Positions 14,994-55,826 of a stretch of 64,000 nt of DNA are shown here, piece by piece. Under the pieces are notes generated by a model, which did no database searches, was not told the origin of the DNA, and saw only the letters and a list, made by a program, of their open reading frames with translations. Origin of the DNA: Psychroflexus planctonicus (GTDB lineage Bacteria > Bacteroidota > Bacteroidia > Flavobacteriales > Flavobacteriaceae); assembly GCF_014640195.1 (NCBI RefSeq), contig NZ_BMGM01000001.1:248001-312000 (forward strand). The letters run 5' to 3'. Both the position numbers and the translations under genes were made by a program. Every line of letters starts with the position of its first letter. Positions within the stretch are counted from its first letter, which is position 1.

Positions 14994-15363
14994 TTAGTGA
15001 TTTTACTGCTCCTTTCATTTTACAGGTTGCGTTAAAGACAGCTCCAGGTTCTATAGCAAGCTTTTCGGTAACTACATTGCCTTCGATAATAGCACTTGAT
15101 TTTAGAGTAAGTGTAGAATTAACGGTAATTTCTCCAGAAAATTTACCTTCAAAATCAGCATATTCACATTGTATTGAACCTTCTACATAACCCGTTTTAC
15201 CTACTACTACTTTTCCAGCTGTGGTTATATTACCCTCTACTTTTCCTTCAATTCTAAAACTTCCTTGAGAATCTATATCTCCTTTAAAAGTAGTTCCTTG
15301 TGCAATTTTGTTCTGCTCTTTAGTTAAGTCTTCCACTTTGTTATCTTTTTTATTTCCAAACAT
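14941..15363 (-). CDS. Bactofilin-family polymer-forming protein
   Basis: A 140-residue protein with a short charged N terminus and a central region of regular beta-helix turns, for example GTTFKGDIDSQGSFRIEGKV and AGKVVVGKTGYVEGSI. These are the short G-x-I/V repeats typical of bactofilins. Such proteins self-assemble into filaments that organise cell-envelope enzymes. The C-terminal tail is basic (RQQQTRKKEQ). Its end overlaps the AtpZ-like start by 53 bases. It sits 3 bases after the PorW-like gene. Confidence 0.9.
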   Translation of the reverse strand: MFGNKKDNKVEDLTKEQNKIAQGTTFKGDIDSQGSFRIEGKVEGNITTAGKVVVGKTGYVEGSIQCEYADFEGKFSGEITVNSTLTLKSSAIIEGNVVTEKLAIEPGAVFNATCKMKGAVKSLNDEKSRQQQTRKKEQTA

Positions 15364-15366
15364 TTG

Positions 15367-17931
15367 CTACTGTATTTTTAGATATTCCTCCATATTTTTA
15401 TGGATTTGTAATATGCTGTAATTGTCTTTCGAAATAGGGAAATATTCCCATTCTTTGAGAGTTACACCATTTTCCAATAGCAACTCTGCCATACCTTCGC
15501 TCCCTAATTTACTATTTAGGTCGTGTAAAAGTACAAAATTATAATCTTTGCTGTAAATATCTACAGAAAGCTTTAACTGTCCGTATTCCAGCTCGGTTAA
15601 TCCTTGTTTTATATTCGCTTTTAATTGCGCTAACTCTTCTAATGTGTAATCATCACTTTCAAAGTAATAGACCAATTTAAAATCATCTTGATTGTTATCT
15701 GGTTTAAATTTTGCATTTTTCATGCTACCATTTAAATTATTGAGCAGTTTTTGTGCTTTTTTGCCTTCTTTAGTTTGCGGATGATCTAAAGCTACTAATT
15801 CCAGCTCTTCTTTGTAGGCATGGTAACCAAAAAGTCTTCCTTTTACTTGTGCTTGCAGCAATTTAAATTTTGGCAACATTGGTGTTGCCGTAAACTCTTC
15901 CTCCCAATACTGGATTTCTTCTAAAAGTCCTTTTAAATCTTGCTTCTGAAACTTCCTATACAATCTCGCATATACTTTGTTTGGGCTGTTTTCTCCATCC
16001 CGTAAACTTCTAGGATTCAGTAAAATTTCTGCATATCTAGAGTTTGGATGTTCACGAATAATGTTTTGTTTCCAGACTTCTGTATTGGCTTGGTCATCAA
16101 GATTCTTGTAAGCCAAATATAAATTGTACTTGGTAGGCAGAATTAGTTTTTCATCTACATTATTAAAAGTTAAAAGCTCTTTAAAACGCTCAATAGCTAG
16201 TTCGTTTTCTTTGAATTTTTCTTTGTAAATAACTCCTAATTGAAAATAAGCATAGGTGCGTTCTTCAGAAATGCTATCGATTATTTTTTTATCGGTAGGA
16301 ATTTCAGAGATATAAGTTTGCGGATCGAACTGTGGGTCCGAAAAAAGATTGTCATCTTCTTCAGGCTCTTCTTCTCCATCTTCATTTGTATTTCCTTTGG
16401 AAGCTTTTTTTCCTTCCAAACGCCAATTATCGTCTAAAGCAATGTCACCCCAAGTACGCTTAAATTTTGTTTTTCCGCTAGAAATTTTAGCTGGATTGTA
16501 AAAATAAAATTCTTGCTTACTTCCATCATTTCCTGAATTGGATTTAGCACCTCCGAAGCCTCCAATTTGCGGCGCTACCACATTGGCCATGCGCTCATCT
16601 TTTTTCTGTTGAGCAAATAAGCTTTTGGCTTCTTCTTTTAATTGATTGGTGTATTTTGTAAAGTAAGCTATACGTGCTTGATCATCCATCTCAACTAAGT
16701 TTAAGATGCTGTCCGTTTCAATAGCAATGTCTTCGTATTTAATAACTTCGTCTAAATTATCGCGCTTCTTTTTGATGAGCCTGAATTCTCGCGTACTTTG
16801 ATCCACATTAGTCATTGTACTATCATAATAAAAGCCGGAAGTTTTGTAGGATGCCTTATCGAAATAAATTTCTGCTAAATTAAAATAATCACGCGAACGC
16901 AAGTAAGTGCTTTCAGGTTGTTCTCGTAAAGATTTGTTGTAATAGTCTATTGCTAAATCTATGGAATCGATTTTTAAATAATGTTGAGCAGATTCGAAGT
17001 ATAAGAAATCTAAGAAGTTTCTATTTTCCCAATCTTCGTGTAATTCTTGAAAATATTCTTTTACGTAGGGCGTATCTTCTGCTTGATGGTCTTCGTTTTT
17101 AAATATTTCCATAAGCGAATGTACCATGTAATTGCGTGGAGGTCTTCGTTTAAATTCAACTACCTGTTCAAAACTAGCGGTTGCTGAATCTTTATTGCCT
17201 ATTTGATTGTAAAGTTGACCTTTAATATACGTCCACCTAGCTTTTTCATCATAGGTTTCTACATATTCAGCAGCAAGATCTATAGGTTCAATTGATGCTT
17301 CATAATTTTCAAGTTTAATATGAATAGCGCCAATTGTTGAATATATTTCAACTAAATCTTCTGGTAGAATTTCAGAATTTTCAGCAAGAATTTGTTGTAA
17401 ATTTTCCAAAGCAGTTTCATCATAATTCAATCGCATATTGGTTTTCTGCAACCAAATTTCAGCTTTGGTAATAATTTCTGAATCGGGATAATGATTTATA
17501 ATAAAGGAAAAAGCATCTTTTGCAGGAATAAATCGCTGATCGAAATAACGAGCTTTACCCAGCAAGAGATAAGCTTCATCTACTTGGTAATTGTATTCCC
17601 TACCACCCATAAACATGGAGTGTTTTTGTATACCACGTGTTGCTTTTAACTCCGCATTTCCAAAATATTCATTTAACGGAACGGTGTCGTTACGCTCGGG
17701 TGGTAATTTTGCCATCCGCTCAACAGGAAGAACTTCAAAATAATGATCTGCATTTTGTTGCTTTACATCATTAATTCCTTGAAGCATTTCAATATTACCA
17801 TGATACAGAATATTATAATACGTAGTCATGGCATGGAAATTCCTATTCACGAACTTATTTTCTTTTCGCGAACAACCCCAAAGAGATAGTAAAACAATCC
17901 CTATAATAAAACTAGTTTTGTACTTCGGCAT
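15367..17931 (-). CDS. PorW/SprE-like TPR lipoprotein of the type IX secretion system
   Basis: An 854-residue lipoprotein. The signal peptide ends in LLSLWGCSR with lipobox Cys20. The conserved segment NFHAMTTYYNILYHGN follows, which is characteristic of PorW/SprE. Several TPR helices are visible between about 110 and 420, and a low-complexity acidic region (EDGEEEPEEDD) follows near 530. SprE/PorW is required for gliding and protein export by the type IX system in Flavobacterium and Porphyromonas. A substrate of that system (endonuclease I with a C-terminal sorting domain) is encoded at 56.0-57.9 kb. Identification rests on the N-terminal motif, TPR content and length. Confidence 0.88.
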   Translation of the reverse strand: MPKYKTSFIIGIVLLSLWGCSRKENKFVNRNFHAMTTYYNILYHGNIEMLQGINDVKQQNADHYFEVLPVERMAKLPPERNDTVPLNEYFGNAELKATRGIQKHSMFMGGREYNYQVDEAYLLLGKARYFDQRFIPAKDAFSFIINHYPDSEIITKAEIWLQKTNMRLNYDETALENLQQILAENSEILPEDLVEIYSTIGAIHIKLENYEASIEPIDLAAEYVETYDEKARWTYIKGQLYNQIGNKDSATASFEQVVEFKRRPPRNYMVHSLMEIFKNEDHQAEDTPYVKEYFQELHEDWENRNFLDFLYFESAQHYLKIDSIDLAIDYYNKSLREQPESTYLRSRDYFNLAEIYFDKASYKTSGFYYDSTMTNVDQSTREFRLIKKKRDNLDEVIKYEDIAIETDSILNLVEMDDQARIAYFTKYTNQLKEEAKSLFAQQKKDERMANVVAPQIGGFGGAKSNSGNDGSKQEFYFYNPAKISSGKTKFKRTWGDIALDDNWRLEGKKASKGNTNEDGEEEPEEDDNLFSDPQFDPQTYISEIPTDKKIIDSISEERTYAYFQLGVIYKEKFKENELAIERFKELLTFNNVDEKLILPTKYNLYLAYKNLDDQANTEVWKQNIIREHPNSRYAEILLNPRSLRDGENSPNKVYARLYRKFQKQDLKGLLEEIQYWEEEFTATPMLPKFKLLQAQVKGRLFGYHAYKEELELVALDHPQTKEGKKAQKLLNNLNGSMKNAKFKPDNNQDDFKLVYYFESDDYTLEELAQLKANIKQGLTELEYGQLKLSVDIYSKDYNFVLLHDLNSKLGSEGMAELLLENGVTLKEWEYFPISKDNYSILQIHKNMEEYLKIQ

Positions 17932-48179: not shown

Positions 48180-48209
48180 AAAGCCGTTTCAAAATTGAAA
48201 CGGCTTTGT
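48180..48209 (+). terminator. Terminator after the cytochrome c peroxidase gene
   Basis: AAAGCCGTTTC (48180-48190) pairs with GAAACGGCTTT (48197-48207) around AAAATT. The T tract is short (TTTGTT). It runs directly into the first att-like sequence at 48209. Confidence 0.75.
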
Positions 48210-48223
48210 TGTGGAGAATATCG
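48209..48223. repeat. Extra att-like copy outside the element
   Basis: TTGTGGAGAATATCG, identical to the element's two att repeats, 144 bases to the left of the left att. The 129 bases between the copies hold a second hairpin (AACCACTTT/AAAGTGGTT, 48330-48349) and no gene. It may be a scar of an earlier integration at the same site. Confidence 0.7.
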
Positions 48224-48352
48224 CCCCGAAACGTCGGGGGAATTCCGTAAATGAGAAAATATTCAATTTTTAATACATTTACGAGGATGCTCGCAAAAGC
48301 GGCACCGATGACTCCATTAAAAAATAAAAAACCACTTTAAAAAGTGGTTGTG

Positions 48353-48367
48353 TTGTGGAGAATATCG
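48353..48367. repeat. Left attachment site (attL) of the tRNA-Ala element
   Basis: TTGTGGAGAATATCG matches 55750-55764 exactly, where the last 12 bases are the tRNA-Ala 3' end. Similarity continues weakly for some ten bases (CGAAC shared). The copies bound an island that starts with an integrase gene. Confidence 0.85.
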
Positions 48368-48461
48368 AACCCGAACGAGCAACCACCACAACAAACAACA
48401 ACTTTAAAAGCTAGTAAATATAAGCATTTATAAAATAGTACATTGAAATAAAGCTAACTTA

Positions 48462-48533
48462 ATCGAACAAAGTAGCAATATATCGAACAAAAATCGAACA
48501 AAAGTATTATCTTTGATATTGTCTAAAACGTAC
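48462..48533. promoter_or_regulatory. Left arm-type sites and integrase promoter
   Basis: ATCGAACAAA occurs three times (48462-48471, 48482-48491, 48493-48502) and once at the right end (55708-55717). TTGTCTAAAACGTAC is at 48519-48533 and again at 55610-55624. These fit integrase or excisionase arm sites. A -7 motif TATCTTTG (48508-48515) between them is a likely int promoter, so the sites could also control int. Confidence 0.6.
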
Positions 48534-48551
48534 TAATTTAAAGCAATATCA

Positions 48552-49805
48552 ATGGCAACGATTAATTTTTATTACAGAAGTAAAAAAGAACAATCTTATT
48601 TAACCGCAAAGCTGAGGTTTAGTTTCAATAAAAAACCTTTTGTTATAACGGCAAAAACAAAAACAAACACCAGTTTAGAAGTTTGGCAAAAAATAGATGC
48701 TAAACGTATTGACGACGGCGAAATAAAAGACCAAGTTATTGACTTGAAAAAAGACTTATCTAAACTAGAAAAATTTGTTTTAAACAACTTTGAAGCTGAG
48801 CCGAACAAATACAAGCCAACTCAAAAACAATGGCTAAAAAGTACCTTAGATACGTTCTACAATCCCGAAAACCAAGCCCCGACGGGTTTAGTTGACTATC
48901 TAAACTTTTATTTAGAAAATAGAAATACTGAAATAAAGAAACATTTAAAATTCAAGTTCAAAGCTTTAAAATCAAAACTTGAAGCACTTGAAGCACAAAA
49001 GAAAACTCAATACGAAATCAAAGACGTAAACGAAAGTTTTAAAAATACTTTTGTCGAGTTCCTAAAAGAAAAAAGCTATTCACAAAACTACACTAGAAAA
49101 CAATTCGGCTTTTTAAAACAGCTTTGTAATCATGCAAAATACAACGGGCTTGAAGTAAGCCCACAACTTGACAAACTAAACGTAAAAGGCGAGAAAACCC
49201 CTAAAATTTATTTAACGCTTGCAGAACTTGAACAAATAGAACAAACCAACTTCAAAAGCGACGAATTAAAAGCGACTAGAGACTGGCTTTTAATTAGTTG
49301 TTATTGTGGGCAACGAGTATCGGACTTTTTAAGGTTTACCCCCGAAATGATAAGAACCGAGAACGGCAAACACTTAATCGAGTTCACACAAAAGAAAACC
49401 AGTAAAACAATGACAATCCCGCTTCATAAAAAAATACTAGATATTATTGAAGCCAACGGCGGGAAGTTCCCTAAAAAACTAATCGACCAAAAATACAACA
49501 AGTATCTAAAAGATGTTTGCGAACTGGCTGAGGTAAACGAGCCAACCAAAGGGCGTAAATTGATAAATTTAGGAACGAAAAAAGAACCGCTTTACAGATA
49601 CAAAACAGACTACTATCCAAAGCACGAATTAATAAGTTCCCACGTAGGGCGACGTTCCTTTGCAACTAACTTTTACGGCAAAATACCGACCACGTTTTTA
49701 ATTTACATTACTGGACATAGCACCGAAGCAATGTTTTTAAACTACATAGGCAAAAGCAATAAAGATTTAGCCCTCGAAGTATCGGACTATTTTAATACAC
49801 TTTAA
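48552..49805 (+). CDS. Tyrosine recombinase / integrase of the tRNA-Ala element
   Basis: A 417-residue integrase of the Bacteroidota transposon/phage type. It has an N-terminal arm-binding domain (about 1-80), a SAM-like core-binding domain (110-200) and a catalytic domain. Catalytic residues visible are Arg255 in YCGQRVSDF, Lys282 in TQKKTSK, His364 and Arg367 in HVGRRSF, His389 in TGHS and nucleophile Tyr398 in FLNYIG. It should catalyse recombination between the att repeats at the tRNA-Ala 3' end. The set of active-site residues is complete, so it is probably functional. Confidence 0.95.
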   Translation: MATINFYYRSKKEQSYLTAKLRFSFNKKPFVITAKTKTNTSLEVWQKIDAKRIDDGEIKDQVIDLKKDLSKLEKFVLNNFEAEPNKYKPTQKQWLKSTLDTFYNPENQAPTGLVDYLNFYLENRNTEIKKHLKFKFKALKSKLEALEAQKKTQYEIKDVNESFKNTFVEFLKEKSYSQNYTRKQFGFLKQLCNHAKYNGLEVSPQLDKLNVKGEKTPKIYLTLAELEQIEQTNFKSDELKATRDWLLISCYCGQRVSDFLRFTPEMIRTENGKHLIEFTQKKTSKTMTIPLHKKILDIIEANGGKFPKKLIDQKYNKYLKDVCELAEVNEPTKGRKLINLGTKKEPLYRYKTDYYPKHELISSHVGRRSFATNFYGKIPTTFLIYITGHSTEAMFLNYIGKSNKDLALEVSDYFNTL

Positions 49806-49816
49806 AACCTCAGCAA

Positions 49817-51670
49817 ATGGAAACAAGAAAAAACGATTTTTTAGTTAGTTGGGAATTTTTAAAAATTGTAAAAACGGAAGCTTATAATATTACGTTCAAT
49901 TACGAGAATGAAAATAAACTAATTGCTTCTATAAAAAACCCTTACTTAATTACACTTTTTTTAATAGAAACAAACTTAAAAGAAAAACTAATTAATATTG
50001 ATGTAATACCTTATAAAGCCAACAACGATATAAGTTTTGATTATAAAAAACAAGCATTTTTAAACTTAAAATATATCTTTGGAAAAGGATATTTAGACGG
50101 ACAAAATCACTACAACAAAGAAATAAAAAACGCCTTAAATACTTTTTATCTAAATGATTTTAATAGGCTTAAGACCGAATTTGATTTTTTGTATAATGAA
50201 AAAAAATATTCGCTTGACAACAAAGGAAAAAAAAAGGAAACAATTACTCAGTTTAGATTTGAGTACAAGCCTTTTAGTTTTTCTGAATTAAATGTTTACA
50301 AGTGGGGATTTTTAACAGCAATTGAAAATAATTTATTTGACTTTGCAAGTGAAAAACCTTACTTAATTGACTTAACAAAAAGAACACAAAGCGTAAGACC
50401 TAAAAATATAGCAGAAAAGATAAATGCTATTTGGATAAAAATAAGATACACCAAAAAGTTAAAAGGTAACCTCAACTTTGACGATGTCAAATCAAACTTC
50501 ATAGACTCACTAGAACTATTTAAAACTTTAGAAAAACACCACTTAAACAAGTTAGAAACAAAGGAATTAAGGGGCGAAATAATAGAAGCCTTAGAGAAAA
50601 TAGAATTTGAACTTGAAACAATAGACCAACGTAGATTTATAAGCAAACTTATTGCAGAATTTGAAGACACAAAAAAAATCAACCCTTTTACTATAACAAT
50701 CAGTTTAACAAGTATTTTCTATAAACTAAAAAATGATATTAAAAACAACAAAAAAATTGACTTGATTGACCTAAAAAATAGAATAAATAGGGCAAAAGAG
50801 TTTTATAGAATAGTTCAAAATAATGATTTCGATAAAACTGAGATTGAAAACTTAAAGGACGATATAAATGATTTGCTAACTAAAATTGAAAATGAATTTG
50901 CCGAAGCAAAAGACAAAGACAAAAGATTTATAGCTGAGCTAATTGAAGACTTCAAAAGTATTGACTTAGATTTAAAAATGTTTGAAAATAAACACTTTAC
51001 AACAATGGCAACAACAAAAGAGAGAGTTCATAAAAGAATAGCAATTGAAGCCTTTTTTAAGGTATTAAAAGAAGTTTCAGACCCTAAGACAACCTACAAG
51101 GGGGTAATAATTAATACAGCCAACTGGAACGAGTTAAAAGACTTGTTTTTTGAGCAAAGAATGAAAGCCTATGAAAGTAGCTTAAATAGTTCAGAAAAAA
51201 TAAAACTTGAAAACGAACTACTCGACCAACTAAAAAACGAAAGCGAAAGCATTTTAAAAGGAATAAAAAAACAACAATTCAATACTTTAGTAGATAGGTA
51301 TAAAAGCTTACTGAATACACCACAAAAAAAGACAAAAAACAAGCCTACTTTTGAAGACTTCTTTACTGGCATAGAAAAACAACAAATAGAACAATTAAAA
51401 GACTTCTCAAATGGTTTTAACTCAAAAAAATCAGCTATTTTTATTGACTTGCTTTATAATGAATTTAGGGTTTTAGATGTAATACCAGGAAACAAAAAAG
51501 GCAAAAGCCCAAAGGACTTTGCAAAGTTATTTAATACTGAAACCTACTCAGGTCTAAATGATTTTTTTGATAAGTCAAAAACTTTCAATGGGATAAAACT
51601 TACTTATAAAGACCAAGAGCAAAGCGAATATTTACAAATGAAAACACGACTTGAAACAATCTTAAAATAG
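49817..51670 (+). CDS. Unknown coiled-coil protein of the tRNA-Ala element with internal repeats
   Basis: A 617-residue Lys/Glu/Asn-rich protein that I do not recognise. The N-terminal third is mixed alpha/beta (FKIV, NYENENKLIASIKNPYLI, then KAFLNLKYIFGKG). The rest is mostly helical and contains a degenerate ~50-residue repeat: residues 233-283 end in RRFISKLIAEFED and 328-380 end in KRFIAELIEDFKS, with a looser third copy about 455-500. It starts 11 bases after int and ends before the operator-rich gap at 51671-51780. No signal peptide or membrane segment is visible. Confidence 0.8.
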   Translation: METRKNDFLVSWEFLKIVKTEAYNITFNYENENKLIASIKNPYLITLFLIETNLKEKLINIDVIPYKANNDISFDYKKQAFLNLKYIFGKGYLDGQNHYNKEIKNALNTFYLNDFNRLKTEFDFLYNEKKYSLDNKGKKKETITQFRFEYKPFSFSELNVYKWGFLTAIENNLFDFASEKPYLIDLTKRTQSVRPKNIAEKINAIWIKIRYTKKLKGNLNFDDVKSNFIDSLELFKTLEKHHLNKLETKELRGEIIEALEKIEFELETIDQRRFISKLIAEFEDTKKINPFTITISLTSIFYKLKNDIKNNKKIDLIDLKNRINRAKEFYRIVQNNDFDKTEIENLKDDINDLLTKIENEFAEAKDKDKRFIAELIEDFKSIDLDLKMFENKHFTTMATTKERVHKRIAIEAFFKVLKEVSDPKTTYKGVIINTANWNELKDLFFEQRMKAYESSLNSSEKIKLENELLDQLKNESESILKGIKKQQFNTLVDRYKSLLNTPQKKTKNKPTFEDFFTGIEKQQIEQLKDFSNGFNSKKSAIFIDLLYNEFRVLDVIPGNKKGKSPKDFAKLFNTETYSGLNDFFDKSKTFNGIKLTYKDQEQSEYLQMKTRLETILK

Positions 51671-51687
51671 CTTGATTATTGTTTATA

Positions 51688-51750
51688 CTTGATTATCAAG
51701 TTTAATCAATTGATTATCAATGTTTTAGACCTAATAACTCTATAATTTTG
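51688..51750 (+). promoter_or_regulatory. Operator-like palindromes and -7 promoter before the HTH gene
   Basis: Two perfect palindromes lie in tandem: CTTGATTATCAAG (51688-51700) and TAATCAATTGATTA (51703-51716). GTTTTAGAC (51722-51730) is the inverse of the GTCTAAAAC seen at both element ends. TAATTTTG (51743-51750) fits the -7 consensus, 31 bases before the HTH gene. This looks like the element's regulatory switch region. Confidence 0.6.
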
Positions 51751-51780
51751 GTTTTGAATTAATTTTTAAAATCTAAAAGA

Positions 51781-52077
51781 ATGAGTTATTCAGAACCAGT
51801 ACAATTTGTACAAATCACAACGGACGAACTGGCAAAGCTAATCGACCAAAAAATTAGCGACAACCTCAACAACTTCAAAAAGGAGTTTCTAAGCAAAGAA
51901 GCCGACGATGAACTACTAACTAGAGAGCAAACGGCTGAGTTCTTACAAGTCGATGTTTCTACTTTGTACTTGTGGGCTAAAAAGGGTAAAATCAAACCTT
52001 ATGGAATTGGCAAACGTCGCTATTATAAGCGAAGCGAGTTAATCGAATGTTTAACCCAAATTAGACAACTAAATTAA
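51781..52077 (+). CDS. HTH_17 / excisionase-family DNA-binding protein
   Basis: A 98-residue protein with a helical N-terminal tail and a MerR-like winged helix: LLTREQTAEFLQVDVSTLYL then WAKKGKIKPYGIGKRRYYKR. This is the excisionase-type HTH_17 domain found in many Bacteroidota mobile elements. It is the first gene after the palindromic regulatory region and lies 9 bases before the next small gene. A role as excisionase or as repressor/activator of the replication operon is likely, but which is not determined. Confidence 0.88.
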   Translation: MSYSEPVQFVQITTDELAKLIDQKISDNLNNFKKEFLSKEADDELLTREQTAEFLQVDVSTLYLWAKKGKIKPYGIGKRRYYKRSELIECLTQIRQLN

Positions 52078-52085
52078 ATAAGGCT

Positions 52086-52391
52086 ATGAGTACAAAAGAT
52101 ACAAATAGCCTTAACAATGCTTTTAACGAGAAGCACAACAAAGATAAGGCTTTAACGCAAAGAAAACGAGTATTTAAAGCATTTTTTGAAGCACCTAAAA
52201 CGATGCTAATGGTATCGAACGAAACGGGTATTTTACGAGCTAATATTTGTAGATATGTCCGAACGTTTAGACAATCCGACAAAGTAGCTGAGGTTAAAAA
52301 AGGTTTATGTAAAATAAGCAACCACCGAGCGGGCTATTTAACAACCAATCCCGACCAGTTCCCTAAGTCAAACCAATTCAAAATGTTTTAA
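52086..52391 (+). CDS. Small putative winged-helix protein of the element
   Basis: A 101-residue basic protein. The middle part (KRVFKAFFEAPKTMLMVSNE then TGILRANICRYVRTFRQSDK) reads as a helix-turn-helix, and KGLCKISNHRAGYLTTNPDQ then FPKSNQFKMF is a conserved tail I associate with similar small proteins in Bacteroidota phages and conjugative elements. It is 8 bases after the HTH_17 gene and 2 bases before the replication gene. It probably helps regulation or replication. The function is not established. Confidence 0.72.
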   Translation: MSTKDTNSLNNAFNEKHNKDKALTQRKRVFKAFFEAPKTMLMVSNETGILRANICRYVRTFRQSDKVAEVKKGLCKISNHRAGYLTTNPDQFPKSNQFKMF

Positions 52392-52393
52392 AT

Positions 52394-54754
52394 ATGAGTT
52401 TTAATAAATTAGACAACTTTATAAAGAATTGGGAAACTAAGTTTACCAATAGAATAGAACAAGCCGTAAAAAGTAGAAAAGAAGTATTCTTACTTTCGGA
52501 CGCCATAAAGAAAAGCACCACTAAAAACAGACGTTCAGAATTGGACGAAGTAATGATACATTTTTTAGAATACATTGGTAAGAACCCACTAAATAAAAAT
52601 GATTATTTTAAATATTTGAATAGTTACAAAAAAGGCAAAGAGTTAAATATTGAATATTTTAAACACGATAAGGAACTTTTATTTGAGCTATACAACAAAA
52701 TAGATGAGTCCCCAGATTATAGTCCGTTTTCAATTGAGAACTGGAAAACCTATGTTTTGTTTATGCTTCTTAAATTTAATAACGTTTACGAGCCTAAGAC
52801 AATGGACGAAGTATTTAGCGTTAAGGTTAACGGAAGTCGTGAATACAACCCGCTTACAAAGCTTACACGACCGTTAAGGGGGATGCTTCCCAGTTCTTTA
52901 AAATTAGTTCAGTATGATATTTCGAGAGCTTACCCTACTTTTATTGATATGGAGCTTAGTATTGAACGAAAAGAAGACGTTTATAGCCTTATAGATAAAC
53001 GCAAATTCAATATGCTACTAAATACACACAAGGAGTGTAAAAACGCTAAAATTGAAGCTGTAAGGGGTCAATTGAGACCAGTTTACGGAAAGCGAGTTAA
53101 TGAAGTAATAACAGAAGACCGATTTAACAATAAAGGGAAACTATTTGAAGACCTAAGCAAGTACGAAAAAAAGTACATTAACAAGTTTATAAAAGCCAAC
53201 AATATTAAAAACTTTGTACGTCTTCACGATGCAATTTTTGTAGATGCTGAGACTGAAATAAAAGAACTTGTTTTTGATAAAATTACTTTTAAAAAGTCCG
53301 ATGTAGAACCGCCCGAAGTTGTAAACGATAAAAGGCTATTTTATGAAATTGACGGCAACAATAAAGTTAAGACTTCCCCAGTAAGCTATAAAGATTTTTT
53401 TGAACAAGAAAATTTCATAAGAGTTTCCATAAAAGACGAAGACACAATTACAATTTTTAAAGATAGTAATAATGTTGTGAAGCCTTTTAACCACAAAACC
53501 GACACCGTTTCATTTTTAAAAAGTAAAGTAAATGAATGCAATCCCGAGCCAATTGAAAATAAAATTGCAAAAGACAACAACAAAGATATTAAAGATAGTT
53601 TTTGCTTACTCGATGCCGTTCCACTTACTTACTATCGAGACAATGCAAATAGTTTTGGAATACCTTTTAAAAATGGTTTTGTCTTTTACAAAAAGGATAG
53701 CGAAAAACTTGAAGTAATACCTTACAAAAAAGTAAACGGATTTTTTCCTGAGCATCCAACACAAAAGCGAGAGTTTAAATACATTGAAGAGCCTCAAATA
53801 TCAATTTTTGAACGTTTCTTAACCTTAGTTTCAGTTGGCAAAGACCCAATAAAAGAAGCTTTAACGGAAGACGAACAAAAAACACAATTTCAATTTTTTA
53901 GAATGTTTGGTTACTTGCTTCACACTTACAAAGACCCGAGTTTTAGTCCGTCTATTATTTTGTCCGATTTTGGAGCTGACGACAATAGTAGAAACGGAAG
54001 ACGTGGGAAGTCTTTATTAGCCGAAGCAATAAAACAGGTGCAAAGATTAAACGAAAAGCGAGGGAACGAATTTGACGGAGGTTACCGTCATAGGTTTGCA
54101 GACCTTACAGAAGCTGACAAAGTTTATTTAATCGACGACGTAATGGCTAATTTTAATTATAATGACTTATACACAAATATTGTGGGAAGTATAAGCGTCG
54201 AACCAAAAGGAAAAAAAGCCCGAACAATAGACTTTAAGCAAACGCCTAAGTTTTTAATAACTACTAATTGGGCTGTAAGGTATGACGCAAACGCAAGTTC
54301 AACAAACGCCCGCTTTATGGAGTTTAAATTTGTCGACTATTTTAATATTAAACATAAACCAGTTGACTACTTTAAACATAGATTTTTTGAAGACTGGAAC
54401 GCTAAGCAATGGAATGAATTTTATAATTTTTGTTTTAGTTGTGTAGCTTCTTTTATTGAGTTCGGCCTCGATGCACCAAAATACGACAAAGATGTAGATA
54501 ATTATAGAGCTTATTTTTATAACGATACATTACTTAATGAATTTGAACGCATCTTAAACGAAGCAACGAGAGACAACGAAAAGGGTTTTAATGTGAGTGA
54601 GTTTTTAAGAATCTACAATACTGGCGGGAATACATTAAGGTTTGAAAAATTCTTTACTTCAAAAAACACAAAAACTCTAATTGATACTTATTTAAAGCAT
54701 CACAAAATTGAGCATAAATATAGGGAAGACTTAAAAAAATGGTTTGTTAATTAG
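52394..54754 (+). CDS. Replication protein: polymerase-like region fused to an SF3-type helicase
   Basis: A 786-residue protein. The C-terminal half is an SF3/D5-like AAA+ helicase: Walker A GRRGKS (535-540), Walker B VYLIDD (577-582), sensor KFLITTN (619-625) and an Arg-finger candidate Arg640 in STNARFMEF. The N-terminal half has three motifs in palm-polymerase order: YDISRAYPTFID (174-185, like motif A DxxSxYP), RPVYGKRVNE (228-237, like a motif B with YG), and RLHDAIFVD (276-284, like motif C of family A). No classical archaeo-eukaryotic primase motif was found. Small elements usually pair SF3 helicases with primases, so a polymerase-like partner would be unusual. The helicase call is firm; the polymerase call is tentative. 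Confidence 0.8.
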   Translation: MSFNKLDNFIKNWETKFTNRIEQAVKSRKEVFLLSDAIKKSTTKNRRSELDEVMIHFLEYIGKNPLNKNDYFKYLNSYKKGKELNIEYFKHDKELLFELYNKIDESPDYSPFSIENWKTYVLFMLLKFNNVYEPKTMDEVFSVKVNGSREYNPLTKLTRPLRGMLPSSLKLVQYDISRAYPTFIDMELSIERKEDVYSLIDKRKFNMLLNTHKECKNAKIEAVRGQLRPVYGKRVNEVITEDRFNNKGKLFEDLSKYEKKYINKFIKANNIKNFVRLHDAIFVDAETEIKELVFDKITFKKSDVEPPEVVNDKRLFYEIDGNNKVKTSPVSYKDFFEQENFIRVSIKDEDTITIFKDSNNVVKPFNHKTDTVSFLKSKVNECNPEPIENKIAKDNNKDIKDSFCLLDAVPLTYYRDNANSFGIPFKNGFVFYKKDSEKLEVIPYKKVNGFFPEHPTQKREFKYIEEPQISIFERFLTLVSVGKDPIKEALTEDEQKTQFQFFRMFGYLLHTYKDPSFSPSIILSDFGADDNSRNGRRGKSLLAEAIKQVQRLNEKRGNEFDGGYRHRFADLTEADKVYLIDDVMANFNYNDLYTNIVGSISVEPKGKKARTIDFKQTPKFLITTNWAVRYDANASSTNARFMEFKFVDYFNIKHKPVDYFKHRFFEDWNAKQWNEFYNFCFSCVASFIEFGLDAPKYDKDVDNYRAYFYNDTLLNEFERILNEATRDNEKGFNVSEFLRIYNTGGNTLRFEKFFTSKNTKTLIDTYLKHHKIEHKYREDLKKWFVN

Positions 54755-55023
54755 TTAACGTCATAAGCGTAATGTACATTACAGATGTAAAAAGGGCTTA
54801 AGGTATTATAAAACAATGCTTTAAGCCTTTACATTACAGATATGACGGTTATTTTAATAAAATGAGAATAAAATTTAAACTTGTGTAATTATAAATACAC
54901 ACACAACACGAATATTAATATTAATACATAAACTTTTATCCGTCATAAGCGTAATGTAATGATATAAGACAATAATATTCAAAAGCTTAACAACCAAAAA
55001 TAAGCGTAATATAAATTACAGAT
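54755..55023. repeat. Iteron-like repeats after the replication gene
   Basis: TAAGCGTAATGTA occurs at 54764-54776 and 54946-54958, with TAAGCGTAATATA at 55001-55013. The first two are preceded by CGTCA. ATTACAGAT follows at 54778-54786 and 55015-55023, and CATTACAGATATGACGG near 54832-54848 is an inverted composite. A hairpin pairs GGGCTTAA with TTAAGCCT around 54795-54830. Direct and inverted iterons beside a replication gene suggest an origin. No gene is present. Confidence 0.65.
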
Positions 55024-55101
55024 ATTACAGTTAACTGTTTTTTTTTACTGATTATCTACAACCGTAAAAAAACGGACATAAACGGAAAATCATACGAATC
55101 G

Positions 55102-55560
55102 TACACCCTTAAGAGAACTGTTTTTCCGACATAAAAAAGAATTTTCGGAAACCATAAAAAAGGAATTGTTTACAACGGTAAAAAACGGACAAAAACGGTC
55201 AACTTTGATTAATCAATTTTTTTCAATTTGAATAAAAAGAAACGAATAATACACCCTTAAGAGAATAAATAAAATTAATAGTTGATTTGTATTAATTAAT
55301 TAATTTATATTAATGATTAAACAACCTTAATTTTGAGAAACCATAAAAAGGAACTGTTTTTCGGACATAAAAAAGGTACAAAAAATTACAATCCTATGAA
55401 TAATTAGACTCCATAAAAAAGGAATAATTTATAAAAGTTCGTTAGTATCTACACGCACGTGAGTAAATATTTAAAAAACGACTAGAAAACGACTAGAAAA
55501 CGGCTGAAAAAAAGGAATTGTTTACGTCGTTTTCGAAGCGACATGAAGTAGGATTGTTTT
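55102..55560. repeat. Second repeat family in the element's non-coding end
   Basis: CATAAAAAAGGAATTGTTT and close variants recur about five times between 55152 and 55525 (for example 55152-55171, around 55341-55360, 55412 and 55510). TACACCCTTAAGAGAA occurs twice (55102-55117 and 55250-55265). AACGGACA/AAAACGG units also recur. The region has no credible gene and very low GC. Origin, packaging or structural-RNA roles are possible. Confidence 0.6.
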
Positions 55561-55570
55561 TCACACATAA

Positions 55571-55606
55571 AAAAAGGGGCTGAATAAATCAAACCCCCTT
55601 TTTGCC
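55571..55606 (+). terminator. Terminator-like stem at the right end of the element
   Basis: AAAAAGGGG pairs with CCCCTTTTT across about 16 bases (TGAATAAATCAAAC region), and a T-rich tract follows. It lies just before the right arm-type motif at 55610. Confidence 0.6.
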
Positions 55607-55609
55607 TTT

Positions 55610-55717
55610 TTGTCTAAAACGTACCAGTAAGGCAACCAATACACCGACAAAGATACTTCTTTAATTTTACCTTAAAAAACTACACTAATTTTTGATTTAG
55701 AACAAAAATCGAACAAA
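55610..55717. promoter_or_regulatory. Right arm-type integrase sites
   Basis: TTGTCTAAAACGTAC (55610-55624) and ATCGAACAAA (55708-55717) repeat the motifs found beside the integrase gene at the left end. They lie 33-140 bases from attR, a usual distance for arm sites. Confidence 0.55.
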
Positions 55718-55749
55718 TAGCTTTATAACTTATTGATAATCAATAAATA

Positions 55750-55764
55750 TTGTGGAGAATATCG
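55750..55764. repeat. Right attachment site (attR) in the tRNA-Ala 3' end
   Basis: TTGTGGAGAATATCG, identical to 48353-48367. Positions 55753-55764 are the tRNA 3' acceptor and T-arm bases. Integration therefore keeps the tRNA whole, as is usual for tRNA-targeting integrases. Confidence 0.85.
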
Positions 55765-55826
55765 GATTCGAACCGATGACCCCTACGCTGCCAGCGTAGT
55801 GCTCTAGCCAACTGAGCTAATTCCCC
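55753..55826 (-). tRNA. tRNA-Ala(GGC)
   Basis: A 74-base cloverleaf on the minus strand. It starts GGGGAATTAGCTCAGTTGG. The acceptor arms GGGGAAT and ATTCTCC pair with a G-T. The anticodon stem CTACG/CGTAG encloses CTGGCAG, giving anticodon GGC (Ala). The T arm has GGTTCGAATCC. The 3' CCA is not encoded. It is the integration target of the adjacent element. Confidence 0.95.

Follow-up and report, generated by a model that had tools for sequence, protein, structure and literature searches.

A compact integrative element in tRNA-Ala of Psychroflexus planctonicus, a candidate minimalist phage satellite with relatives in Bacteroidota

We analyzed a stretch of 64,000 nucleotides from Psychroflexus planctonicus (contig NZ_BMGM01000001.1, positions 248,001 to 312,000; here called the window), which carries a 7.4-kb element integrated at the 3' end of a tRNA-Ala gene. 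On balance, this element is probably a phage satellite of Bacteroidota, minimalist and dependent on a helper, which would excise and copy itself and, as we infer, is packaged by a phage. It is one of a group of recurring small elements of Bacteroidota that is apparently undescribed. More tentatively, we propose that the group is a satellite family able to switch helper phages. In this proposal a constant integration and regulation core would be combined with exchangeable replicases (a polymerase-like/superfamily 3 (SF3)-like fusion in the window, D5-type plus DUF6371 in others) and with an exchangeable small terminase gene (TerS), drawn from at least three PHROG families or missing.

The ends of the element are marked by an exact 15-bp attachment (att) word, TTGTGGAGAATATCG, which is common to the 3' end of the tRNA. 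In the 3,113,709-base genome, this word was found three times in forward and never in reverse orientation, and the control word read backwards was not found at all. The copies start at 48209, 48353 and 55750 of the window, and none lies elsewhere in the genome. The inner pair encloses 7.4 kb with a mean GC content below that of the flanks. The match at the element ends is short, with 15 exact base pairs followed by an imperfect continuation inside the tRNA. The outer copy at 48209 had not been seen in an earlier reading of the letters and open reading frames (ORFs), here called the sequence-only reading. It is perhaps the scar of an earlier insertion or of a partial excision. The stretch from 48209 to 48352 consists of this extra copy and 144 bp with a terminator-like hairpin at its end. 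A second element of the same genome, L009, likewise has an extra left att copy, 141 bp away, and the stretch between is unlike that of the window. When two congeners (G174 and G349) were inspected for an empty site, the right-flank gene was present, but the 16 kb around it held no tRNA and the left-flank gene was not matched.

Five genes, all on the plus strand, lie between the att ends (Table 1). The observation of the sequence-only reading, which listed an att duplication, a complete integrase, helix-turn-helix (HTH) genes, a large replication protein and an origin-like region, was confirmed, the replicase and the origin as probable ones. The integrase is 40-52% identical to those of three sister elements and 45-46% identical to those of prophage contigs L027-L030. 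The excisionase-like HTH protein is conserved in sister elements and in phage contig L032. It also touches the small-terminase profile phrog_309 (E 0.011 over 23 residues), which we did not count as a terminase. With this match set aside, no relaxase, capsid, portal or terminase family was found among the five proteins in Pfam, PHROGs or NCBIfam. The 101-aa protein is 38-51% identical to ten of 11 homologues and 29% identical to the remaining one.

Table 1. Features of the integrated element and its target in the window (positions in window coordinates).
Feature	Position	Strand	Evidence or remark
Third, outer att-word copy	48209-48223	+	Exact 15-mer, 144 bp left of the element
Left att site, integrase-proximal end	48353-48367	+	Exact 15-mer common to the tRNA-Ala 3' end
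Tyrosine integrase, 417 aa	48552-49805	+	PF00589 E 2.5e-9; Phage_int_SAM_5 2.2e-5; PHROG integrase 9.7e-23
617-aa protein, middle slot between integrase and excisionase	49817-51670	+	No family
Excisionase/MerR-like HTH protein, 98 aa	51781-52077	+	HTH_17 5.2e-14; PHROG excisionase families
101-aa conserved protein, family marker	52086-52391	+	HTH-like by inspection
786-aa replication protein	52394-54754	+	phrog_28855 E 2.6e-25 (a family itself without function)
Repeat-rich, AT-rich non-coding region, 996 bp	54755-55750	.	Degenerate repeats
Right att site, overlapping the tRNA-Ala 3' end	55750-55764	+	Exact 15-mer
Intact tRNA-Ala (GGC), integration target	55752-55826	-	ARAGORN; Rfam tRNA E 4.8e-13; 3' end at 55752

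The 101-aa marker is present in several families of Bacteroidota, with matches in 14 of 397 genomes sampled at the family level, 11 of 395 at the order level and 12 of 395 at the phylum level (the samples overlap). We mapped the regions around most of the family- and order-level matches together with a named relative, L008, from a Flavobacteriaceae metagenome-assembled genome; ten phylum-level and two order-level places were left unfetched. This yielded 16 att-bounded elements in tRNA or transfer-messenger RNA (tmRNA) genes, the window's included. They measure 5.7-10.7 kb (median 7.27 kb) and are targeted to tRNA-Ala (4), tRNA-Leu (4), tRNA-Arg (3), tRNA-Asn (1), tRNA-Cys (1) and tmRNA (3). 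The gene order, integrase, middle protein, excisionase, (101-aa protein) and replicase, recurs with small exceptions. L009 lacks the 101-aa gene, L042 has no mapped middle gene, and several members carry short genes in the excisionase slot that were not tagged by similarity. Untagged ORFs of less than 70 aa were dropped in this mapping, and L046 and L047 are near-copies. The window element has the same order between att words at a tRNA 3' end; it is real and not an isolated decayed piece. The sequence-only reading would have been contradicted by a lack of conserved gene order elsewhere or if these genes had turned up only in the decaying remains of some larger conjugative element. Neither was observed, and the order recurs in 15 further elements.

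As a control for the boundaries, the 3' end of each tRNA or tmRNA was compared with the 1.5 kb upstream of the integrase gene; where several tRNAs were near, the one adjoining the replicase end was used. The longest common word reached at least 13 bp in 15 of the 16 elements and in 2 of 410 random controls. Thus, the sharing of att words is not due to chance overall. In L040, L042 and L111 the longest word is only 13 bp. The sixteenth element, L038, has 15 bp common to both ends, but within an over-long ORF start.

Replicases are exchanged among the members. The 786-aa type was found in the window, L008 and L042, a D5_N/DUF5906 protein in 8 of 16 elements and a DUF6371 protein in 10 of 16, and others carry further types. 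Two members reside in the genome of P. planctonicus itself, the window element in tRNA-Ala and L009 in tRNA-Leu with another replicase. In L009 (6564-12710, contig C10) this is a 484-aa protein related to the C-terminal part of the window replicase; a 237-aa protein without assigned function is also encoded. Near the far end of 4 of the 16 elements, and at further loci, a 195-aa protein family occurs (L008:12911-13498 and homologues) with conserved W-F-CP-T-K-CR and Y-GK-TK positions. It was also seen in viral contigs L034 and L078, and its L008 copy had no Pfam or PHROG match.

The middle slot between integrase and excisionase is filled in 15 of the 16 elements (none mapped in L042) by proteins of 164-867 aa. 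It is also filled in tailed prophage contigs L058 and L059, and the sequences are mostly without detectable likeness. In the window element, this slot is occupied by the 617-aa protein. Pfam and NCBIfam gave no hit to it up to E 1, PADLOC gave none, and PHROG matches were confined to E 0.06-0.3. A stretch of 69 residues is 48% identical to G296 (E 3.1e-8). Since its matches are restricted to 2 of 397 genomes, the own genome included, the protein is no family marker. The suggestion of the sequence-only reading that the 617-aa protein could be an interference or transfer factor is not supported, as the slot is filled by proteins mostly without detectable likeness, also in tailed prophages. An interference role was probed with a hidden Markov model (HMM) of related middle proteins, which recovers 5 of 31 at E 1e-3, the window protein not among them. 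Filled mostly by dissimilar proteins, the slot looks like the variable part of an integration and regulation module.

We then looked for genes of transfer, virion and defence. The 16 elements contain 120 ORFs, and the 83 without an integrase, excisionase or 101-aa tag were scanned. Against Pfam (E up to 0.001) they matched 18 families and no relaxase, type IV secretion, capsid, portal or terminase family. Against PHROGs (E up to 1e-5) they matched 26 families, and the 25 listed are replication, HTH or unknown; a terminase-like protein of L107 falls short of this threshold. The Pfam and PHROG scans of the window element found no portal, large terminase (TerL) or major capsid gene of a tailed prophage. 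The lack of virion structural and large-terminase genes at these thresholds agrees with the general definition of a phage satellite. Together with the conserved order, the scans support the description of a compact replicating integrative element without recognized transfer or capsid genes. With PADLOC, the anti-phage models PD-T4-9_A and PD-T4-9_C each matched a single one of the 83 proteins, and the HTH model mad1 was reported in three members. The PD-T4-9 carrier we take, by eye, to be L048 with its 134-aa and 187-aa proteins. This 10.7-kb member holds probable PD-T4-9 anti-phage components at 15036-16007 (PADLOC, attributed by inspection).

Since the window copy is without a terminase gene, conjugation from an unrecognized origin of transfer (oriT) is the main rival. 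The element would then be an integrative mobilizable element with an oriT only. As a circle it would move with the help of the relaxase and mating pore of an integrative and conjugative element or a conjugative plasmid resident in the cell, much like an NBU-type element of Bacteroides minus its mob gene; we regard this as unlikely. NBU1 and NBU2 carry a primase gene. NBUs are tRNA-integrated with a tyrosine integrase and an excision factor, NBU1 in the 3' end of tRNA-Leu (PMC5704250), and elements with an oriT but no relaxase are a recognized class (PMC11389934). In addition, an oriT could lie unnoticed in the 1 kb of non-coding DNA. However, NBUs carry their own MobP relaxase (PMC5704250), and no Pfam relaxase was found among the 83 proteins of any of the 16 elements. 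The own genome gave no match to PF03432, the one relaxase family searched, and this search found a match in only 1 of 14 control genomes. Moreover, the terminase-like genes and phage-shared modules of the sister elements point to phages.

A search with the integrase alignment returned 11 IMG/VR contigs. In L058 and L059, integrase, middle, excisionase, D5 and DUF6371 genes adjoin genes for portal, MuF, TerS and TerL. The tailed prophage L060, from which the L028 match derives, has an integrase of 45% identity and also has the excisionase and the middle gene in common with the elements. Tailed prophages and the elements thus share integrase and excisionase genes and, as far as sister elements are concerned, replication genes of the D5 type. 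In the integrase tree, element integrases and those of IMG/VR phages interleave. The window integrase falls into a supported clade of 13 rows, consisting of 5 phage-labelled rows, 1 circular contig and 7 elements, and two further element-phage pairs are supported elsewhere. The phage label in this tree denotes IMG/VR origin; the check for structural genes covered only L028/L060, L029, L032/L058, L059 and L062. Integrases of Cellulophaga phages are 29-31% identical to that of the window. Related integrases also occur in 'Bacteriophage sp.' records from human faeces; the three that were fetched are not members.

Such shared genes would also suit an element that is the remnant of a larger tailed prophage after loss of its structural genes, and related integrase, excisionase and, for sister elements, replication genes do occur in L058, L059 and L060. 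Independent decay should leave varied pieces, but the 16 elements differ little in size, are bounded by att words on either side and have kept their long replication genes open. We consider a remnant very improbable; an ancient origin of the elements from a prophage is possible.

Small-terminase-like genes were found in four compact relatives, one of the 16 elements (L107) and three IMG/VR contigs (L031, L073 and L119). L031 is a 6.9-kb contig with a 99-bp terminal repeat and the element in circular order. Its TerS (phrog_51, E 9.8e-23) is 61% identical to that of phage contig L032/L058, and no TerL or portal match to phage reference proteins was found in it. It also contains an att word of 13 bp that is like tRNA-Arg, whereas 20 shuffles reached at most 11 bp. 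L119 shows a joined order, with the integrase after the replicase and the end of the middle gene at its start, and has no terminal repeat; its TerS-like protein matches phrog_24579 (E 2.9e-6). The protein of the chromosomal L107 reaches a PHROG E of only 0.013 alone and 1.2e-46 to the L119 protein. A third PHROG family, phrog_309 (E 6.2e-10), is represented in L073, an IMG/VR contig of 4734 bp that forms a 4.6-kb circle with a 125-bp terminal repeat, a D5 helicase and DUF6371, and no integrase. L078 is circular with a 127-bp terminal repeat and no recognized TerS. Of the five contigs in circular or joined order, L031 was the sole match when 23 tRNA/tmRNA ends were tested; L078, L119, L122 and L073 gave no word. 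The terminal repeats of 99-127 bp in L031, L078 and L073 have the size of assembly k-mers and point to circular or tandem DNA, not phage ends. No large terminase was found in the four TerS-bearing relatives by comparison with phage reference proteins, the full family scan covering only L107. A further search of IMG/VR found 354 loci with a related TerS, of which 79 were kept. Three of these 79 have at least two module genes, so TerS-bearing compact members are few. Two of the three are phages already met above; in the remaining one, L141, TerS lies next to a MuF match.

Another circular contig, L122 (IMG/VR, 9623 bp, 123-bp terminal repeat), encodes an integrase, excisionase-like and 101-aa-type genes and a homologue of the L107/L119 TerS-like protein. 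One of its proteins matches the major head protein (phrog_10, E 2.4e-12) and another, of 722 aa, is tape-measure-like by eye, so that the contig is perhaps a capsid-encoding satellite or a small phage. Three viral contigs of 72-105 kb (L120, L121 and L123, IMG/VR) encode the 101-aa protein in a version of 48% identity, adjoining a gene weakly similar to the L048 replicase. In this viral scan, a three-row HTH alignment found nothing and a 12-row alignment found six loci.

The terminase-like genes also bear on another explanation, a plasmid-like integrative replicon with no dedicated helper, which general transduction or natural transformation would spread on rare occasions. Integrase, replicase and origin-like region in one unit and the circular relatives would suit such a replicon, and in most members nothing dedicated to transfer was recognized. 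The small-terminase-like genes in four compact relatives and the anti-phage gene matches suggest instead a specific relation to phages, and we judge this explanation rather improbable.

The 786-aa replication protein has no Pfam or NCBIfam match. By inspection, polymerase-like motifs lie in its N-terminal domain (about residues 50-330) and an SF3-like helicase part at about residues 400-700. The C-terminal part is 24-35% identical to five phage and three plasmid records, some of them annotated as primase or primase-helicase. Full-length homologues were found in L008 (57% identity) and L042 (47%), and the N-terminal domain also occurs in 800-aa proteins adjoining an excisionase-like gene in three genomes. 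Its motif order R, D, HD recalls the TV-Pol family (PMC2579912). R149, R162, D175 and D279 are invariant in six aligned homologues, their palm and template roles being assumed. A fingers RxxxK motif was seen by eye in homologues L086, L087 and L090, and KxxxN in the window type. TV-Pol elements and the Sputnik TV-Pol/D5 helicase fusion (PMC2579912) resemble this arrangement, a polymerase-like N-terminus with an SF3-like helicase part and an integrase nearby. These motifs hint at TV-Pol, but attempts to show that the N-terminal domain is homologous to it failed and the assignment could not be confirmed. The domain had no meaningful PDB profile match and, alone, no phage or viral contig match. 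An hhalign match to Microcystis phage LMM01 (top of 39 ORFs) covered 25 columns and was spurious, and two AlphaFold (AF2) models in this test had a low mean confidence (pLDDT 33 and 37).

Downstream of this gene, the non-coding region has a repeated 10-mer mass of 143, compared with a mean of 14.6 and a maximum of 48 in 200 mononucleotide shuffles. Three kinds of degenerate repeat are present in 4, 4 and 2 copies with 1-4, 0-3 and 0 mismatches, respectively. From this repeat content, the region is a probable replication origin. A 53-bp non-coding match to nine Prevotella phage records (the eight listed are Lak phages; E 2e-3) was taken as chance.

Most of what is known of phage satellites comes from Proteobacteria and Firmicutes. 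We found no description of a comparable phage-satellite family of Bacteroidota or Flavobacteria in the open literature, subscription papers lying mostly outside the search. In phage-inducible chromosomal islands (PICIs), divergent regulatory genes lie beside the integrase gene, and an own TerS redirects packaging, which is not universal. In contrast, all five window genes are on the plus strand and the window copy is without TerS. Similarities to PICIs and SaPIs are the integrase, an own replicase by an origin-like region and, in some relatives here, TerS without TerL; for these islands see PMC6092414. The phage-inducible chromosomal minimalist islands (PICMI) of Vibrionaceae are another near system, compared by description and not by protein sequence. 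PICMI115 measures 6110 bp, and PICMI have excision and replication core proteins, no terS or capsid-remodelling genes, and are packaged whole by a helper phage (PMC10803314). Packaging in the form of concatemers inside the helper's capsids is a mark of this group. The window element shares the small size, the excision and replication core and the lack of terS, and packaging by a helper would be a further likeness. It differs in lying in tRNA-Ala and not next to fis, and some of its relatives carry a TerS-like gene. The marine VEIMEs and tycheposons, integrative elements proposed to be satellites and transduced in virions (PMC10803314, PMC11389934), are alike by description and not by sequence. 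Within Bacteroidota, the 10K genomic island of Riemerella anatipestifer lies beside an Arg-tRNA, excises as a circle and has an IntN1-like integrase domain (PMC6764341). It is a similar small tRNA-adjoining island with an integrase, compared by description and not by genes, and its transfer route is not shown.

The boundaries, gene set, conservation and circular relatives suggest the following course, in which excision, replication and packaging are inferred. Infection by a helper phage or induction of a prophage would be the trigger. The integrase and the excisionase-like protein would cut the element out as a circle, which the 786-aa protein would open and copy from the repeats at 54755-55750 into multimers. 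Terminase and capsid of the helper would then package this DNA by recognizing a site on the element. Being without TerS, the window copy would depend on a cos/pac-like site, as reported for a PICMI that has no terS (PMC10803314). In some sister elements, an own small terminase may make packaging more specific. Control of this switch would fall to the HTH proteins together with the middle protein.

Several observations weigh against a phage satellite. A terminase-like gene occurs in only 1 of the 16 chromosomal elements and its PHROG score is weak. In the window copy, two HMM searches of all frames found no TerS, and no cos/pac site or helper phage was identified. The own genome has no clear large terminase in a search with one family, phrog_979; its one match (E 4.8e-6) is possibly PhoH, and other terminase families were not searched. 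Prophages L058 and L059 have a D5-type replicase and not the 786-aa type. Integrases are common to many kinds of mobile element, IMG/VR membership is no proof of encapsidation, and circles are equally expected of excised mobilizable elements. Twelve other regions that were fetched alike (L041, L043, L044, L045, L051, L105, L108, L109, L110, L112, L113 and L114) show no complete bounded element and stand outside the 16, as no integrase with a usable tRNA lay in the stretch. L112 has a tRNA-Arg, but its contig ends before the integrase, L051 has no recognizable element, and L044 carries a virion structural protein and is phage-like. Finally, no activity of the window element was observed. The sequence-only reading had named a phage satellite or an integrative plasmid. 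Of these, the satellite has gained evidence from the TerS-like genes in four relatives and the modules shared with prophages, but for the window copy the choice is undecidable from sequence.

With so few genes, experiments on these elements can address excision, replication and packaging directly, and members that have a TerS-like gene can be compared cleanly with those that lack one. Hosts that can be cultivated and have phages are available, such as those of the Cellulophaga phages. In the 786-aa replicase, the unassigned N-terminal domain also merits study. If the more tentative reading holds, Bacteroidota would harbour minimalist satellites that keep their integration and regulation core while replicases and small terminases are exchanged, and that may switch helper phages in this way.

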